Assembly: GCA_022819645.1 (NCBI GenBank)
Contig: JAJEGU010000033.1
Coordinates: forward strand, 27,377-91,376
Direction: 5' to 3'
DNA from: Pseudomonadales bacterium
Lineage (GTDB): Bacteria; Pseudomonadota; Gammaproteobacteria; Pseudomonadales; Pseudohongiellaceae
DNA length: 64,000 bases
This document shows positions 11,456 to 20,100 of this stretch, one piece after another. Each line of letters starts with the position of its first letter. Position 1 is the first letter of the stretch. The translations under genes were made by a program, and so were the position numbers. The notes under the pieces were generated by a model, which was not told the origin of the DNA, ran no database searches, and was given only the letters and a program-made list of their open reading frames with translations.

Positions 11456-13222
11456 TCAGAACGGCCAGGCTGGCATCGAGACGACTTCCTGCTCTATCGT
11501 TCCGAGGCTTTCCACCACGATTTCGACCACGTCCCCCACCTCCATGTTGCGCCGCATTCCGGGGACCACCGGCATTGCGCCGGTGTAGATCAGGTCGCCG
11601 GGCTCAAGCGTCATGTAGCGGGAGAGATAGCTCACGAGCCGGGCCGGACGATTGACCATCGTCGACGTGCGGCCCTCGGAGAGCAGTTCACCGTTGACCC
11701 GCACGCTGATTCCAAGATCGCTGTAATCAAGGCCCCGGACGATCATGTTGCCAAGGCCCGCCCAGGTATCGGTGGCCTTGCCCACGAGCTTGAGCGGCCG
11801 CACGCCCCGGTCGGATGCGACCCAGGAAAGTTCGGTCCAGTCATTGCCCGCGGCAACGCCGAAGATATAGTCCTCCGCCTCGCTCTCGGGAATGTGGCGA
11901 CCGCTGCGGCCGATGACGAGCACGAGTTCACCCTCGGGAATCATCATCTCGGCCTCGGGCGGCTTCTGGACTTCGCCGCCGTCCGGGCTGAGCCCTGTGG
12001 AGGCCTTGAAGAAATAGCGCGGATGCGGCACCTGGCTGGGCATGCCGTCCACGGGATGATAGTTGGCCGCGACCGAAAGCACCTTGCGGCCCGGCTGTTC
12101 CGGATCCACCGGCAGGCCAAGTTCGACATCCGCAAGATCGAAGCTGCGCCCGGTCGGGGCGGCGCCGCCTTCCACCGGGTCGCCGTCAAGCTCGCTGACC
12201 TGATCTCCATCGAGCATGCCGAAAGACCAGCCGTCCTCGTGCTGGAAACGAACATAGGCGCTCACGCCGTCGGGCTCGGGAAGCGCCGGGCCTGAAACCG
12301 TTTGCCGCGTTACCCGCACGAGCTGATTGCTCACCATGCCAACGCCCTCGATTTCGACCTCGACCACATCGTCCTGCCAAAGCTGGCGCCGCGTGCCGGG
12401 AAGCTGCGGGGGCGCAACCGTACCGGTGAAAATGAGGTCGCCGCGCTTGAGGGTGATGTAATGGCTCAACTTGCTGATCAGCGCGGCGGGGCTGTTGCGA
12501 AAGTCCGCGGTGGAGCCCTGGGCGGCCACCACGCCATCGAGCCTGACGGTGAGCTGCAGATCGCTCAGGTCGAGCCCGGTGACCATGTAATCCCCGAGTG
12601 AGGCGAAGGTATCGCCGGCCTTGCAGAAAACATGGCTGGGCTCTTCGATTCCCCGACCTTCGCCGCACCAGTCGTTCTCGCTCCAGTCATTGCCGACCAC
12701 CACGCCGAAGAGATGGTCCATGGCTTCGGACTCGGGAATATGCCGACCCTCGGTTCCGATAATCAGTCCGAGTTCGCCCTCGAAGTTGAAATTGGTGGCG
12801 CCGAAGGGAACTTCCACGGGATCGCCGTTCCGCGCCAGCGAAGTGGTCGCCTTGCCGAACCAGGATGGATGCTCCACCTCCACCGGGTTGCCATTGGGAT
12901 TGTTCGAGTTTCCGGCAACGCCGAAAACCCGGGGCACCCGGTCGGGGTCCATGGGCATCTCAAGCTCGACGTCTCCCCTGGCAACGGTCCGCCCGGTCTC
13001 GCTTACGCCGTCATCGAAAAGCGGGTCACCATCGAGTACGCGGATGGCGTCGCCGTCGAGGATGCCGTTGTGGGTGCCGGTATCGTCACTGAAGCGGACG
13101 TAACGGGTCATGTCCCCGTTCTCGGCTGCGAAGGCGGCGGTGAAGAGCTGCCCCGCAAACGCCAGCAAGGGAACCAGCAGGAATTTTGCCAAATCGTGCC
13201 TGAATCGGACGAATGCTTGCAT
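11456..13222 (-). CDS. Exported tandem-domain fumarylacetoacetate hydrolase family protein
   Basis: N-terminal hydrophobic segment, then two homologous ~270-aa halves (YVRFSDDTGTHNGILDGD / YVRFQHEDGWSFGMLDGD; each with 'HIPESEA.D..FGV..GNDW'). Confidence 0.85.
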   Translation of the reverse strand: MQAFVRFRHDLAKFLLVPLLAFAGQLFTAAFAAENGDMTRYVRFSDDTGTHNGILDGDAIRVLDGDPLFDDGVSETGRTVARGDVELEMPMDPDRVPRVFGVAGNSNNPNGNPVEVEHPSWFGKATTSLARNGDPVEVPFGATNFNFEGELGLIIGTEGRHIPESEAMDHLFGVVVGNDWSENDWCGEGRGIEEPSHVFCKAGDTFASLGDYMVTGLDLSDLQLTVRLDGVVAAQGSTADFRNSPAALISKLSHYITLKRGDLIFTGTVAPPQLPGTRRQLWQDDVVEVEIEGVGMVSNQLVRVTRQTVSGPALPEPDGVSAYVRFQHEDGWSFGMLDGDQVSELDGDPVEGGAAPTGRSFDLADVELGLPVDPEQPGRKVLSVAANYHPVDGMPSQVPHPRYFFKASTGLSPDGGEVQKPPEAEMMIPEGELVLVIGRSGRHIPESEAEDYIFGVAAGNDWTELSWVASDRGVRPLKLVGKATDTWAGLGNMIVRGLDYSDLGISVRVNGELLSEGRTSTMVNRPARLVSYLSRYMTLEPGDLIYTGAMPVVPGMRRNMEVGDVVEIVVESLGTIEQEVVSMPAWPF

Positions 13223-13326
13223 GAATCAGGTACTCCTCTGCTATTCTGGATTGGACGGGCAAGACTACAATTATTGTTTGACGATTCCAAACGTTTCCGG
13301 GCGCAGTGATTTTGGGGCAGGCGCGA

Positions 13327-14319
13327 ATGAAAATCCATATCGTTCTTCGGCATCTGGGCCTCTGCGCCCTGGTTTTTGGCACCCCCGCCATGGCCTGGGA
13401 TTCGGTGGGGCACCGGGTCAGCGCCCAGGTGGCTGTGGCGTTTCTGGAACCCGGCGTTCGCGAGCGGCTGGTGGCGATTCTGGCGGCCCATCCCCGCTAT
13501 CAGGAAGATTTTCTCGACGATGTGCCGGGCTTCATCGACGCCTCGAATCAAATCGAGCATGAAAGCTGGTTGCTGGGGCAGGCGGCGTTCTGGCCCGACA
13601 TCGCCAGGGGCCTGCCCCGCGGCGAGCGCGAACGCTATCACCGCGGCAACTGGCACTACATAGACGGCGCCTGGCTCCGGGGCCATGCCGCCACCCAAGG
13701 CAACAGTTATGTGGGAATCGACCCTCTGCCTGATTTCCCTGGCATGGAAGCGGAGGCGATCCTGAACGAGGCCGATGTGGACAATGTGGTGCTCGGGCTC
13801 GATTACAACATGGCCTTGCTGACGGATGCCGCCATGGACCCGGCCCGGCGCGCGGTGGCCCTGTGCTGGGTGCTGCATCTGGCGGGCGATATCCACCAGC
13901 CGCTGCACACGGGTTCCCTGTTTTCCGCCCGCCTGTTCGACAATGGAGACGCCGGCGGCAATGGCATCGACACCAGCGAAGGCAATCTGCACGCGGTGTG
14001 GGACGGCGCCCTGCGCGAGCAGGGGGTGGTCGCCGGCGTCAGCGCCATTCTTGACCGGCTGAATGGTATCGACCGAACCGAATTCGAATCGGCGCCGCTG
14101 GACTGGACCCTGTGGATGGAGGAAAGCCGTGAACTGGTGACCACGACCGTGTACCCGGATACGGTCAGGGAGGAAATCCTTGCAGCGGAGCGCGAGGGCC
14201 GGGATTTGGGCGAGATAGCCCTGTCAGCGGGCTATCTTGCGGAAATGCGCGAAATCTCCCGGCAACGCCTCGGTCTGGCGGCGCTTCGCATGGCCCTGCT
14301 GTTCAATCGAAACCTGTAG
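13327..14319 (+). CDS. S1/P1-type secreted nuclease
   Basis: Signal peptide then AWDSVGHRVSAQVA; 'LHLAGDIHQPLHTG', 'GGNGID', 'NLHAVWDGAL'. Confidence 0.9.
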   Translation: MKIHIVLRHLGLCALVFGTPAMAWDSVGHRVSAQVAVAFLEPGVRERLVAILAAHPRYQEDFLDDVPGFIDASNQIEHESWLLGQAAFWPDIARGLPRGERERYHRGNWHYIDGAWLRGHAATQGNSYVGIDPLPDFPGMEAEAILNEADVDNVVLGLDYNMALLTDAAMDPARRAVALCWVLHLAGDIHQPLHTGSLFSARLFDNGDAGGNGIDTSEGNLHAVWDGALREQGVVAGVSAILDRLNGIDRTEFESAPLDWTLWMEESRELVTTTVYPDTVREEILAAEREGRDLGEIALSAGYLAEMREISRQRLGLAALRMALLFNRNL

Positions 14320-14379: not shown

Positions 14380-16614
14380 TCAGGCGTAGCAGTGCATTTT
14401 CCCGGCTTCTCCCTGTTGTCGCCGGTTCGCGGCAAGCTTCAGCACATTGTGAATCAGCCCCGGACCATGACCGTTTTCCAGGCTCATGATGGACTCGGGG
14501 TGGAACTGGACCCCCCATACCGGAAGCTCCCGGTGTTCCACCGCCATGATCACGCCATCTTCGCTGCGGGCGGTGACTTGCAGGCAGTCCGTTACCGAGG
14601 CGGCAAGCAGGGAGTGGTAGCGGCCCACCGGGAAAGACTGCGGGATTCCGGTGAACAAGACACTGCCCTCATGGGCGATCAGCGACTGCTTGCCATGCAT
14701 GGGAGCCTGTAATTGCCCGAGTTCGCCGCCAAAGTGTTCGACGATTCCCTGCAGGCCAAGGCAGACCCCAAAGACCGGAACCCGCCGCTCCAGCGCCCTG
14801 GCGATGGTCTCGCAGACAGCAAAGCGGCCTGGCGTAGATGGCCCTGGCGACAATACCACCAGATCGATCCGCTCCCCACGCAGGTACTCCCGGGCGGCCT
14901 CGGCGCGCAAGGTGATCAGTTCCGCGCCAAGCCGCCGGAAACAATCCCCGAGGCTGTGCACGAAGGAGTCTTCATGGTCCACCATGAGCACCTGCAACCG
15001 CCCGAATTCCGGCGTCGCCCGGAATGGCGCCGTAGCGGAAATCGGCTTTACGGAAACGCCAATGGCCTGCATCAGCGCCCTGGCCTTGAGCCGGGTTTCC
15101 TGCTCTTCGGCTTCCGGGTCGGAATCCGCCAGCAAGGTGGCCCCGGCCCGCACTTCGGCAACGCCGTCCTTGATGCGAATCGTGCGCAGGGTCAGGCCGG
15201 TATTGAGGTTGCCGTCAAAACCGATATGACCAATGGCGCCGCCGTACCAGCGCCGGGCGGATTTCTCGTGCCGTTCCAGATATTGCATGGCCGCCAGCTT
15301 GGGAGCGCCGGTGACGGTGACCGCCCAGGTGTGGGAGAGGAAACCGTCGAGGGCGTCAAAGCCGCTCTTCAGGCGGCCCTTGACGTGGTCCACGGTGTGA
15401 ATCAGACGGGAGTACATTTCAATCTGCCGCCGGCCAACCACTTCCACCGATCCCGGTTCGCAGACCCGGGCCTTGTCGTTGCGATCCACATCGGTACACA
15501 TGGAAAGCTCGGATTCATCCTTGCTGGAATTGAGCAGGCGGCGGATTTGTTCGGCGTCGGCGAGGGCGTCAACGCCCCGGGCGATGGTGCCGGATATCGG
15601 ACAGGTTTCGATACAATCGCCTTCCACCCGCACGAACATTTCGGGAGAGGCGGCGACGAGGTATTCCCGCTCGCCAAGATTCATCAGGGCGCCATAGGGC
15701 GCGGGGTTTGACTCGGCAAGACGCTGGAACACCTGTGCCGGGCTGTCCTTGCACGGCGCGAAGAAGGTCTGGCCGGGAACTACTTCGAACAGGTCGCCGC
15801 GGCTGAAATACCGCTTTGCGCGCTCGACGCCGGCGGCGTATTCCCCGGCCTCGTGATCACACTCCCGCTGCACGGAAATCGCCGGCGAAAAAGGAACCGC
15901 CAGGGCGGAGCGCTTGAGGCCGCCGGTGGTTTCCCCATGTTGCTCGCGACCCCGGGCGCGGCAGATGAACTCATAGTTGTACGCCAGCGCCTGTTCCCGC
16001 CGGTGGTCCGAAACGAGAATGCGGTCCGGCAGATACAGCACAAGGTCGCGATCATCCGGCCCGCGCTGCTGTTGCAGTTCGATCTCCTCGAACTGGAATG
16101 TCAGGTCGTAACCGAAAGCGCCATAAAGCCCGAGAAAGGGGTCATCCGGGAAGCGAAACCAGGCTGACAGGGCCCGCAGGGCGGAAAATACGCTGTGCCG
16201 GCGGCTGCGGTTCTCCTCGCTGAACCCGCCTTGCGGCGGCCGGATTTCCAAATGGATCGCCGACTGCCGTCGCTCAAGCCAGTGAAGAAAGTCGCCCCCG
16301 GCAAAGGCCCGCTCCACTTCGGCGAGCAGAATCCCGCCCCGGCGGTTGAGCGCCTCCACGGCGAGTTTGCGGCCGCGCCCCACGAGGCGCAACGGCGGAT
16401 TGACAAAGCCGATATCCCAGCGGGTATAGCGCCCGGGATATTCAAAACCCGAACGCAGCAATACGCCGGGAGAGGCATTGAGGGCTTCGGTCAGGCCATC
16501 CATTGCCGTGGCGTAGTCCAGCTTTTCCACCGACAGATGCACACGCACACCGCCGCCGGTCTCGTGGCGGTATTGTCGGCCGGGCTCCCATCGTACAGTT
16601 CCACTCGTTCCCAT
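14380..16614 (-). CDS. trpE(G): Anthranilate synthase, fused component I and II (TrpE-TrpG)
   Basis: Chorismate-binding domain (PISGTIARG, 'GAPKLAAM') fused to a class I glutamine amidotransferase (LSPGPSTPG, FGVCLGLQ, 'WGVQFHPES'); SD GGAGGA upstream of ATG 16614. Confidence 0.92.
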   Translation of the reverse strand: MGTSGTVRWEPGRQYRHETGGGVRVHLSVEKLDYATAMDGLTEALNASPGVLLRSGFEYPGRYTRWDIGFVNPPLRLVGRGRKLAVEALNRRGGILLAEVERAFAGGDFLHWLERRQSAIHLEIRPPQGGFSEENRSRRHSVFSALRALSAWFRFPDDPFLGLYGAFGYDLTFQFEEIELQQQRGPDDRDLVLYLPDRILVSDHRREQALAYNYEFICRARGREQHGETTGGLKRSALAVPFSPAISVQRECDHEAGEYAAGVERAKRYFSRGDLFEVVPGQTFFAPCKDSPAQVFQRLAESNPAPYGALMNLGEREYLVAASPEMFVRVEGDCIETCPISGTIARGVDALADAEQIRRLLNSSKDESELSMCTDVDRNDKARVCEPGSVEVVGRRQIEMYSRLIHTVDHVKGRLKSGFDALDGFLSHTWAVTVTGAPKLAAMQYLERHEKSARRWYGGAIGHIGFDGNLNTGLTLRTIRIKDGVAEVRAGATLLADSDPEAEEQETRLKARALMQAIGVSVKPISATAPFRATPEFGRLQVLMVDHEDSFVHSLGDCFRRLGAELITLRAEAAREYLRGERIDLVVLSPGPSTPGRFAVCETIARALERRVPVFGVCLGLQGIVEHFGGELGQLQAPMHGKQSLIAHEGSVLFTGIPQSFPVGRYHSLLAASVTDCLQVTARSEDGVIMAVEHRELPVWGVQFHPESIMSLENGHGPGLIHNVLKLAANRRQQGEAGKMHCYA

Positions 16615-16663
16615 CACGGGTTCCTCCGCTTGACCTGCCGGAGCCGTGACTGGAACGATTACT

Positions 16664-16776
16664 GAAAGGAAACAGAACGACCGCCACAACTCCGGGCGGC
16701 CGGTGAAGAATTACTCAGGATTCTTCCGGCAGCCCGCGTCGGCAAACCACCAGAAGCTGAAACGCAACCTGTTCAT
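16664..16776 (-). promoter_or_regulatory. trp attenuator: leader peptide plus alternative terminator/antiterminator hairpins
   Basis: trpL ORF 16776..16711; 1:2 stem CTTCTGG/CCGGAAG; 2:3 stem CGGGCTGCCGG/CCGGCCGCCCG (10 of 11 pairs); terminator stem GGCCGCC/GGCGGTC then GTTCTGTTTCCTTT. Confidence 0.88.
16711..16776 (-). CDS. trpL: Trp leader peptide MNRLRFSFWWFADAGCRKNPE
   Basis: Tandem TGG TGG codons within a 21-codon ORF, placed just upstream of terminator/antiterminator hairpins and trpE(G). Confidence 0.85.
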   Translation of the reverse strand: MNRLRFSFWWFADAGCRKNPE

Positions 16777-16933
16777 GGTCGCGATACTGAACCCGCGGCC
16801 CCGGAAAGTCAAGCGGGATTTGGCTAATAAGCTGATCCTGACTCCACAGGGGTTTGACCGCAGGGCCTTTGTCCGTCGGGCGGCTTGCTGCTAAGCTTTG
16901 GCGACTTCGGATTGCAACGGCGGGAGCTTTGCC

Positions 16934-18202
16934 ATGGTCCTTCTCCAACGATTTTTCATTGCCGCATTCGCGCTGGTTTTTTCGGCCGCATCGCTGGCCG
17001 CCGAGTTTGTCCGGGGCGACCCGGAGCAACTCGGGCTTTCCGCCGAGCGGCTGGCAGTGCTCGATGCGCGGCTGAAGGCCTTTGTCGAGGAGGACCGCAT
17101 CGCCGGACAGGTGGTGCTCGTGCTGCGCGATGGAAAAGTGGCGTTCAGCGCCGCCAATGGCTGGCGCGACAAGGAAGCGGGCGCGGCCATGAGCGGCGAC
17201 ACGATTTTCCGCATTGCTTCCCAGACCAAGGCCATTGTCAGCACGGCGATCATGGTCCTGCAGGAGCAGGGCAAGCTCGACATCAGCGACCCTCTCGGGC
17301 GCTATATTCCCGAATGGAGCGACATGCAGGTTGCGGTGGTGCCGGACGGCAGCGTGGGCTATGTGCTGGAAGACGCGGCCCGGCCCATCACGATCCGGCA
17401 TCTGCTGACCCACACCGCCGGCATGAGTTATGGCAGCGGGCCGGCCCAGGACCGCTGGGAGGCGGCGGGCTTCCAGGGCTGGTATTTCGCCAACCGCGAC
17501 GAGCCCATCGCCGAAACCATCGCCCGCATGGGTTCACTACCCCTGGACGCCCATCCCGGCGAGCAATGGATCTATGGCTACAGCACCGACATTCTCGGCG
17601 TGGTGGTGGAAAAAGCCAGCGGCATGGACCTGCAAAGCTTTCTGCAACAGCATATCTTCGACCCGCTCGACATGCGCGACACGCACTTCTACCTGCCGGA
17701 AGACAAACGCGACCGGCTGGCCACGGTGTATCGCCCCGGCGCCGATGGCGTCGAAGCGATTCCGGAAACCGACGGCATGCAAAGCCAGGGCATGTATGCG
17801 AACGGCCCCCGCACGAGTTTCTCCGGTGGCGCGGGCCTGCTTTCCACGGCCCGGGACTACGCCCGCTTCCTGCAAATGACCCTGAATGGCGGCGAGCTTG
17901 ACGGCGCGCGCGTCCTCTCGCCCAAGACCATGGAACTGATGACCGTGGACCATCTGGCGGGAATCCCCTTCCGCAGCGGCCAGGGTTTCGGCCTCGGCTA
18001 TTACGTGCTTGAAGACCTCGGCGCCAATGGGCGTCTTGGCTCGGAAGGCGAATACGGCTGGGGCGGAGCCTACCATTCCACCTACTGGGTGGATCCGGCG
18101 GAGGCTCTGGTAGTCGTCTATCTCACCCAGATCATCCCCGCCACGGGCCTGAACGACTACAACGTGCTCCGCAACGGGATTTATCAGGCGATCGTGGATT
18201 GA
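16934..18202 (+). CDS. Serine hydrolase, beta-lactamase/class C-like family
   Basis: Signal peptide; SQTK (SxxK) motif; YGYS motif. Confidence 0.88.
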   Translation: MVLLQRFFIAAFALVFSAASLAAEFVRGDPEQLGLSAERLAVLDARLKAFVEEDRIAGQVVLVLRDGKVAFSAANGWRDKEAGAAMSGDTIFRIASQTKAIVSTAIMVLQEQGKLDISDPLGRYIPEWSDMQVAVVPDGSVGYVLEDAARPITIRHLLTHTAGMSYGSGPAQDRWEAAGFQGWYFANRDEPIAETIARMGSLPLDAHPGEQWIYGYSTDILGVVVEKASGMDLQSFLQQHIFDPLDMRDTHFYLPEDKRDRLATVYRPGADGVEAIPETDGMQSQGMYANGPRTSFSGGAGLLSTARDYARFLQMTLNGGELDGARVLSPKTMELMTVDHLAGIPFRSGQGFGLGYYVLEDLGANGRLGSEGEYGWGGAYHSTYWVDPAEALVVVYLTQIIPATGLNDYNVLRNGIYQAIVD

Positions 18203-18948: not shown

Positions 18949-20100
18949 ATGATTGAACGGGAACAACATGTTCGGGAAATCCTGCGGCGACTTCGCAACT
19001 TTGAAGTTGTGGCGATTCTCGGTCCGCGGCAAATCGGCAAGACCACCCTGGCGCGGCAGGTGGCCGGCGGTTTTCGATCTCGTTCACATCATTTCGACCT
19101 GGAAGACCCGGCGATCCTCGCGCAACTTGAGGCCGACCCGAATCTGGCCCTCAGGGAACTCAGGGGCCTGGTCATCATCGACGAGATTCAGCGTCTGCCA
19201 GACCTCTTCCCCCTGTTGCGGGTACTCGCCGACCGCAGACCGAGGCCGGCCCGGTTTCTGGTGCTGGGCAGCGCCTCGCCGAAGCTGTTGCGGCAATCTT
19301 CGGAATCCCTTGCCGGCAGAATCAACTATTTTGAACTGAATGGATTCGGCCTCCATGAAACCGGCCCGCAGCGGCTTGCCCGCCGCTGGCTGCGGGGCGG
19401 GTTTCCAGCCGCCTATCTGGCCAGATCCCATCGCGACTGCTTCGAATGGCTGGAAAGCTTCTGCCGCACTTTTGTTGAAAGTGATCTGGCCCAACTCGGC
19501 GTTCGCACTCCCGGGGTCACCTTGCGCAGATTCTGGGCCATGCTGGCGCATCGTCACGGACAGACCTGGAATTCCACCGAATTTTCACGCGCCTTTGGCG
19601 TGGCGGATACCACGGTCCGCAGATACCTCGACATTCTCAGCAGCGCACTGGTGGTGCGACAGCTTCCGTCCTGGCGCGAGAATCTGAACAAGCGTCAGGT
19701 GCAGGCACCGAAGGTGTATCTGCGGGATTCGGGGCTGACCCACCACCTGTTAGGCATAGCCGATACCGCGTCGCTTGATGTCCACCCGGCGAGGGGGGCC
19801 ACCTGGGAGGGCTTGCTCATCGAATTCGTCATGGAACAACTGGCGGAGCCGGGGCGCGAGTTCTACCACTGGCGCGCCCATACCGGGGCCGAACTCGACC
19901 TTTTCTGTCGCAGGGGCAACGAACGAATCGGCATTGAAGTCAAGCTCAGCTCCGCCCCACGAATCACGCCATCCATGCGCAGCGCTCTGCGGGACCTGAA
20001 GCTGAAGGAACTGGTGGTGATCCACGCCGGGGAAGAATCCTGGCCCATGGCGGAAAACATCCGCGCCGTGGCGGCCAGAAGGCTGCAAAGCGACCTGTAG
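18949..20100 (+). CDS. ATP-binding protein, AAA + DUF4143 family
   Basis: Walker A GPRQIGKTT; 'VIIDEIQRLPDLFPLLR'; DUF4143-like C-terminus. Confidence 0.85.
   Translation: MIEREQHVREILRRLRNFEVVAILGPRQIGKTTLARQVAGGFRSRSHHFDLEDPAILAQLEADPNLALRELRGLVIIDEIQRLPDLFPLLRVLADRRPRPARFLVLGSASPKLLRQSSESLAGRINYFELNGFGLHETGPQRLARRWLRGGFPAAYLARSHRDCFEWLESFCRTFVESDLAQLGVRTPGVTLRRFWAMLAHRHGQTWNSTEFSRAFGVADTTVRRYLDILSSALVVRQLPSWRENLNKRQVQAPKVYLRDSGLTHHLLGIADTASLDVHPARGATWEGLLIEFVMEQLAEPGREFYHWRAHTGAELDLFCRRGNERIGIEVKLSSAPRITPSMRSALRDLKLKELVVIHAGEESWPMAENIRAVAARRLQSDL

Follow-up and report, generated by a model that had tools for sequence, protein, structure and literature searches.

In the usual scheme, an attenuator consists of three alternative helices that end in a terminator. 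The trp leader of Escherichia coli follows this logic, with helices 1:2, 2:3 and 3:4 and tandem Trp codons in strand 1, and in the trp leader of Bacillus subtilis tryptophan acts through TRAP to control both termination and a hairpin at the Shine-Dalgarno (SD) sequence of trpE. In Sinorhizobium meliloti, the trpL-trpE(G) system (rnTrpL/peTrpL) combines a leader peptide of 14 amino acids, encoded with consecutive Trp codons, with a fused trpE(G) located apart from the other trp operons, and the attenuator RNA begins with the ATG of trpL (PMC7298713). For the B. subtilis tlrB (yxjB) leader, one stalled leader ribosome controls both a terminator and an SD hairpin (PMC6851288), and transcription as well as translation attenuation is reported for the vmlR leader (PMC9226507). 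Actinobacterial ileS T-boxes possess an SD sequestor and an anti-sequestor, and trp leaders described alongside them end in poly-U terminators (PMC1262725). Here we analysed a leader upstream of trpE(G) in a 64,000-nucleotide (nt) stretch from an uncultured, marine-type Pseudomonadales bacterium of the Pseudohongiellaceae (contig JAJEGU010000033.1 of assembly GCA_022819645.1, positions 27,377 to 91,376; hereafter the window). In the reading that we consider fairly likely, it is a ribosome-mediated trp attenuator controlling trpE(G), extended by a relay that reaches the ribosome-binding site of this gene.

The locus resembles that of S. meliloti in several respects. An open reading frame (ORF) on the minus strand, consisting of 21 codons and a TAA stop and containing two consecutive Trp codons, starts 162 nt upstream of the ATG of a fused trpE(G), which stands outside any trp operon. 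The protein belongs to the TIGR01815 clade, as required for a rhizobial-type trpL-trpE(G) (992.7 bits, cut-off 739.15), and also matches NF010081 (1053.9 bits, cut-off 645). Leader peptides of the window type are longer than that of S. meliloti, at about 20-21 amino acids, and contain two Trp codons (one in some relatives) among Phe and Tyr codons. The initial annotation had compared the leader with those of rhizobia; this arrangement is indeed shared, but the lineage is a Pseudohongiella-related gammaproteobacterium, with Pseudomonadales and Pseudohongiella metagenome-assembled genomes as its nearest named relatives. Translation of trpE(G) starts at the ATG at 16614 or the in-frame GTG at 16617. 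A longer mechanical ORF begins at TTG 16689, which is unlikely to be the real start; the ORF from there runs over the 3:4 hairpin.

We found the Trp-codon ORF and the alternative helices conserved in about 40 genomes of the genus. At about 35 named loci and further genome loci, the leader ORF lies at the same place and typically encodes MNTRFYFWW...GCQ. In 15 relatives, the two Trp codons are invariant and the ratio of non-synonymous to synonymous polymorphism (pN/pS) over codons 2-7 is 0.30, which indicates a real coding sequence under purifying selection. A covariance model built from strands 1-4 (R1) gave one strong match in the 3.1 Mb draft genome (E 7e-25) and matched 46 of 84 genomes of the genus, nearly always just upstream of trpE(G). 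TrpE(G) itself is present in 42 of these 84 genomes and in 73 of 137 genomes of the family; of the 296 genomes sampled from the order, just one from another family has it. In favour of a chance ORF and hairpins in G+C-rich DNA, without any regulatory element, a scan against Rfam 15 gave no matches at E <= 1 in 16000-17500, and a simple promoter and terminator scan listed nothing here. Nevertheless, conservation, covariation and the position beside trpE(G) in dozens of genomes refute this explanation, to which we assign practically no weight.

Some leaders depart from the typical form. Immediately upstream of the Trp codons, Phe and Tyr codons (RFYFWW; leader codons 4-8, 16767-16753 in the window) are conserved in the relatives, with mostly synonymous changes. 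The whole architecture is kept in leaders with a single Trp codon (L041-L045 and L065, with ORFs about 157-172 nt before trpE(G), as well as L064, L066, L102 and L116), where peptides include FYFWF, FFWQF and FYFWLF; a separate one-Trp leader, ending in LVQGWRRS[LM]GRR, occurs in L116, with similar ones in L066 and L102. Apparently a single Trp codon suffices, unless these leaders respond to another cue. Genome G033 carries two trpE(G) genes, on C16 (L004/L039) and C94 (L031/L041/L192), 92% and 80% identical to that of the window; both are preceded by their own leader, which has two Trp codons in one case and a single one in the other. Strong R1 matches away from trpE(G) in G013 and G008 were considered as a second regulon and rejected, as these are decaying leaders: in L185 (G013, 303-408) and L186 (G008, 299-404) the ATG has become ATA or TTG and, in addition, a TAG interrupts the frame or a Trp codon is gone. 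Both genomes are without a TIGR01815 match, and the copies are relics after trpE(G) loss. At the weaker R1 matches in G203, G157, G010 and G028, neither a Trp leader nor trpE was found.

All elements that the initial annotation had placed on the minus strand, namely the leader ORF, its tandem Trp codons, the pairing CTTCTGG/CCGGAAG and the 2:3 and 3:4 helices, were located at those positions, although the 1:2 stem is longer than this pairing, with about 15 base pairs (bp) formed by CTTCTGGTGGTTTGC and GCGGGCTGCCGGAAG and both Trp codons inside. The ORF reads ATG AAC AGG TTG CGT TTC AGC TTC TGG TGG TTT GCC GAC GCG GGC TGC CGG AAG AAT CCT GAG TAA, as given in that annotation. In helix 2:3, CGGGCTGCCGG (16736-16726) pairs with CCGGCCGCCCG (16703-16693) at 10 of 11 positions, and the lone mismatch is kept in relatives. 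Helix 3:4 is formed by GGCCGCC (16701-16695) and GGCGGTC (16685-16679) and is followed by TTCTGTTTCCTTTC. The free 113-nt leader folds as 1:2 plus 3:4 (minimum free energy (MFE) -44.7 kcal/mol, z -2.56), whereas the leader without strand 1 folds as 2:3. In an alignment of 35 leaders, 3:4 is paired in 97.9% of the cells and 2:3 in 92.5%, the latter with 17 double-change cells and none of 500 shuffles as good; 1:2 is paired in 86% of the cells (34 leaders). Unguided RNAalifold on the 35-leader alignment gave 1:2 and 3:4. The locus therefore combines an ORF with clustered Trp codons upstream of a biosynthetic gene with mutually exclusive 1:2, 2:3 and 3:4 helices that hold these codons in strand 1. 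Lack of conservation of the Trp-Trp ORF or of the alternative stems in close relatives had been named among the outcomes that would refute the attenuator; both are conserved, and, to the extent that sequence comparison can show it, ribosome-mediated trp attenuation is highly likely.

A promoter of leaderless type, absent from the initial annotation, was found directly upstream of the leader. In all 36 leaders compared, TTGAC is followed after 18 nt more by a -10-like hexamer (mostly CA..AT) that ends 7-10 nt 5' of the leader ATG, and no SD-like motif was present 5' of the leader ATG in any of the 36. Because this spacing places the +1 position there, transcription probably begins with the leader ATG or no more than a few bases away, so that the leader would be leaderless, as in S. 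meliloti. The simple consensus sigma-70 promoter and terminator scan listed neither this promoter nor the 3:4 terminator; the -10 hexamer fits the consensus poorly and the 3:4 loop is apparently over the size limit of the scan; we therefore relied on comparative evidence.

The attenuator had been described as complete. Strands 1-4 are present as claimed, but the element continues to the trpE(G) start through two further strands, 5 and 6 (16652-16614). Strand 4, comprising the loop and the 3' arm of the 3:4 hairpin, is complementary to strand 5 over up to 14 bp. The 4:5 duplex of the window has a predicted energy of -25.1 kcal/mol, which was matched by 11 of 20000 dinucleotide shuffles, and 4:5 is individually significant at the same place in most leaders of the genus. 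In 32 leaders, 336 of 384 4:5 cells are paired, a number that 20000 non-cognate reshufflings did not reach (maximum 322); when each clade is represented by a single leader, the count is 150 of 168 (131.9 in reshufflings, sd 2.8), and slid registers reach at most 53% paired. As the strands for the 32-leader count were chosen and registered by the analyst, an un-fitted MAFFT alignment from strand 4 to the ATG served as a check. Here 4:5 was the sole consensus helix that unguided RNAalifold returned (31 leaders), with double changes in 6 of 11 pairs; 87.3% of the cells are paired, and the 30 double-change cells (10.7 after shuffling) were reached by none of 500 shuffles. These shuffles leave sequence kinship in, which the slid-register and one-per-clade controls partly remove.

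In single leaders the two strands can be seen to change together, as in L059 and L116/G049. Alternatively, the 3:4 hairpin could stay intact and its loop pair with strand 5, forming a pseudoknot that serves RNA stability or folding without any ribosome-driven switch. A short pseudoknot could form since the hairpin loop makes up the 5' half of strand 4, and 4:5 is predicted to be stable without stalling in most species. However, the complementarity extends into GTGGCG in the 3' arm of 3:4, where changes are matched by changes in strand 5: in L049 and L030, GGTGG inside the 3:4 stem is accompanied by CACC, instead of GGCGG with CGCC. We consider the pseudoknot improbable; that 4:5 is a real, selected helix is, judging from the covariation, very likely.

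Strand 5 can alternatively pair with strand 6, which includes the SD sequence and the start codon of trpE(G). This hairpin has a z of -1.95 in the window and a mean z of -2.03 over 22 leaders, and the named structure is paired in 85.6% of the cells (15 leaders). Two features of a translation attenuator are hence present: a hairpin pairing the SD sequence and start of trpE(G) (5:6) and a conserved alternative helix that excludes it (4:5). In the apical loop of 5:6 a short CGGTC or CCGTC motif recurs in many relatives, e.g. L053, L102, L116 and L047, and could be a contact site.

In the phylogenetic tree of TrpE(G), leaders with 4:5 fall into a single clade (support 0.98); its nearest outgroup is genus g123, followed by g120. 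The 3:4 hairpin is conserved, but the T tract behind it is weak, which makes 'terminator', as the initial annotation called the hairpin with its T-rich tract, the least certain of the labels. The mean T-score is 3.05 in the genus of the window, compared to 4.4 in rhizobial leaders and 4.8 in g41/g120-type leaders of other Pseudohongiellaceae; in g123 the tracts are mixed (3.37), and they are weak in f82 (2.82), without 4:5, and in g40 (2.85, an approximate value, since for a few leaders the tail was taken from another copy of the motif close to the start codon). In the sampled rhizobial-type leaders, unlike in the genus of the window, the T tracts are strong and 4:5 is mostly missing. The data did not support a significant 4:5 as being general among rhizobial, f82, g41, g120 or g123 leaders, where a few single leaders had p ~0.01-0.05 and two sampled others were lower; in g40 there was a trend only, with 2 of 12 leaders at p = 0.017. 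Weak T tracts accompany 4:5 in the genus of the window, yet they occur elsewhere too.

Several leaders show further features in this region. In genus g1, CTATTG(T/C)T is kept after the 3:4 hairpin in most relatives outside the subclade of the window. The g40 leaders (G287, G266, G307, L126-L131, L179-L184) encode FWW or FW peptides and have a strong hairpin that continues into non-T sequence such as AGTCATACC, as well as a short hairpin beside the SD sequence; they are possibly another route to translational control. In the Bradyrhizobium-like f82 (L157-L161, L163 and L164 of the L142-L164 group), a conserved TGTGTGGCG after the hairpin complements CGCCA(T)CGCA or CGCCAGCACA, which lie in the strand 3/loop region; this match, identified by eye, may represent another kind of downstream pairing, with p of 0.02-0.06 in the 4:5 test in 4 of 7 leaders.

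These data bear on two simpler explanations. The leader could be a plain transcription attenuator as in rhizobia, with the 3:4 terminator as its sole output, 4:5 and 5:6 as incidental pairings and a non-regulatory interval between terminator and trpE(G). All three classical helices are conserved, the tail TTCTGTTTCCTTTC of the window is T-rich enough for some termination, and the closest studied relative works in this way (PMC7298713). Covariation nevertheless conserves 4:5 across the clade and the T tracts of the genus are weak; moreover, strand 5 cannot serve termination because it sits past the termination point. We therefore regard this explanation as unlikely. The opposite possibility, that 3:4 no longer terminates and the chain sets SD access alone, draws on the T tract being weak in g1, absent in g40 and strong in the outgroups g41/g120, of which g120 lies outside the 4:5 clade on the tree. 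As the tail is still T-rich in the clade of the window, poor T tracts can terminate with NusA or Rho, and f82 leaders have weak tracts without 4:5, a purely translational attenuator appears rather unlikely, if less so than the purely transcriptional one. As a tentative scenario, somewhat more plausible than either, the output may have shifted from termination to translation initiation in one gammaproteobacterial clade, where the terminator strand would have become an anti-sequestor in a six-strand chain to the trpE(G) SD sequence and strong poly-T terminators like those of g120 would be ancestral.

In the favoured reading, an attenuator with a relay to trpE(G), the leader peptide would be read from a leaderless mRNA that starts at or near the leader AUG, as promoter spacing suggests. 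When charged tRNA-Trp is plentiful, the ribosome would clear the Trp codons, leading to 1:2 and then 3:4, helices supported by conservation; RNA polymerase would terminate or, in read-through RNA, 5:6 would hide the SD sequence and start of trpE(G). When tryptophan is scarce, the ribosome would stall on the Trp codons in strand 1, so that 2:3 forms instead of 3:4, leaving strand 4 without its partner. Strand 5, made before strand 6, may then be captured by strand 4 through the covarying pairs, and the SD sequence would emerge open. One stalled ribosome would in this way yield both read-through and open translation initiation. In L053 and L055, the MFE structure flips from 1:2+3:4+5:6 to 2:3+4:5 on masking strand 1.

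Other results weigh against such a relay. In equilibrium folding, 4:5 is usually favoured over 3:4 as soon as strand 5 is available, stalled or not, the full-length RNA of the window keeps 5:6 closed in both states, and the SD sequence opens just slightly more with strand 1 masked than with strand 2 masked (p ~0.02). In six of the 32 leaders first tested, 4:5 was not individually significant. For 5:6, the covariation is moderate (24/500 and 9/500 shuffles), and unguided consensus folding of this segment recovered just its outer three pairs. Some relatives retain just one Trp codon. The helices are established by comparison of leaders, and their order, the opening of the SD sequence and its effect on expression are inferred. 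Equilibrium folding is ambiguous on the direction of the switch, especially for the sequence of the window. These models show no clean switch; a working one would need to be set during transcription. On balance, we think that the relay probably acts on translation initiation.

Compared to the E. coli trp leader, the leader of the window differs in its probable leaderless start, its fused target gene, the weak T tract and the presence of strands 5 and 6. TRAP is a protein that binds free tryptophan, whereas here the sensor would be a ribosome reading Trp codons. The signal for tlrB and vmlR is an antibiotic instead of an amino acid, and in tlrB both structures are blocked directly by the stalled ribosome (PMC6851288), while in the window the signal would travel along the helix chain. 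The ileS T-boxes likewise link an amino acid signal to SD sequestration by competing hairpins, but they use a tRNA-binding sensor and have no leader peptide (PMC1262725). We found no description of strands 5 and 6 of a trp leader in the open-access literature. The coordinates of all features are listed in Table 1.

Table 1. Features of the trpE(G) leader region, in window coordinates.
Feature	Position	Strand	Remarks
Leader promoter	16784..16812	-	-35 TTGACT (16812-16807), 17-nt spacer, -10 CAGTAT (16789-16784)
Leader peptide ORF, MNRLRFSFWWFADAGCRKNPE + stop	16711..16776	-	tandem Trp codons 16752-16747; conserved in relatives
Strand 1, CTTCTGGTGGTTTGC, holds both Trp codons	16742..16756	-	113-nt leader fold; 1:2 in alignment
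Strand 2, GCGGGCTGCCGGAAG, partner of strand 1 or, via 16736-16726, of strand 3	16724..16738	-	folds and alignment counts
Strand 3, CCGGCCGCCCG, partner of strand 2 (antiterminator) or strand 4 (terminator-like hairpin)	16693..16703	-	alignment counts
Strand 4 and hairpin loop, CCGGAGTTGTGGCGGTC	16679..16695	-	3' part is the partner of strand 3, 16695-16681 that of strand 5
T-rich stretch after 3:4 hairpin, GTTCTGTTTCCTTTC	16664..16678	-	5 T in first 8; weak intrinsic-terminator tract; T-score 2.95
Strand 5, CAGTCACGGCTCCGG, partner of strand 4 or strand 6	16638..16652	-	4:5 energy and covariation
Strand 6, SD GGAGG (16627-16623) and GTG/ATG start (16617/16614)	16613..16628	-	can pair with strand 5: GTCACGG/CCGTGAT, CTCCG/CGGAG
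trpE(G), fused anthranilate synthase (components I + II)	14380..16614	-	TIGR01815 and NF010081 matches

The neighbouring genes of the window encode a double FAA-hydrolase (11456-13222, minus strand) and, on the plus strand, an S1/P1-type nuclease (13306-14319), a PF00144 beta-lactamase-fold protein (16898-18202) and an AAA_14/DUF4143 ATPase (18949-20100). The same genome carries a separate trpE and trpG on contig C42, named by homology. No Trp leader was found at this other trpE, which begins directly behind an upstream ORF. Because separate trpE and trpG genes exist without such a leader, the trpE(G) copy looks like a starvation-inducible anthranilate synthase.

The rhizobial trpL/trpE(G) arrangement, probably leaderless, hence occurs in a gammaproteobacterial family as a second, separately regulated anthranilate synthase. 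Its leaders form a natural series, from strong terminators without strand 5 to weak ones with 4:5 and 5:6. This series would allow testing how a transcription attenuator acquires, or is converted to, a translation attenuator, and whether one leader ribosome controls both steps of one gene.
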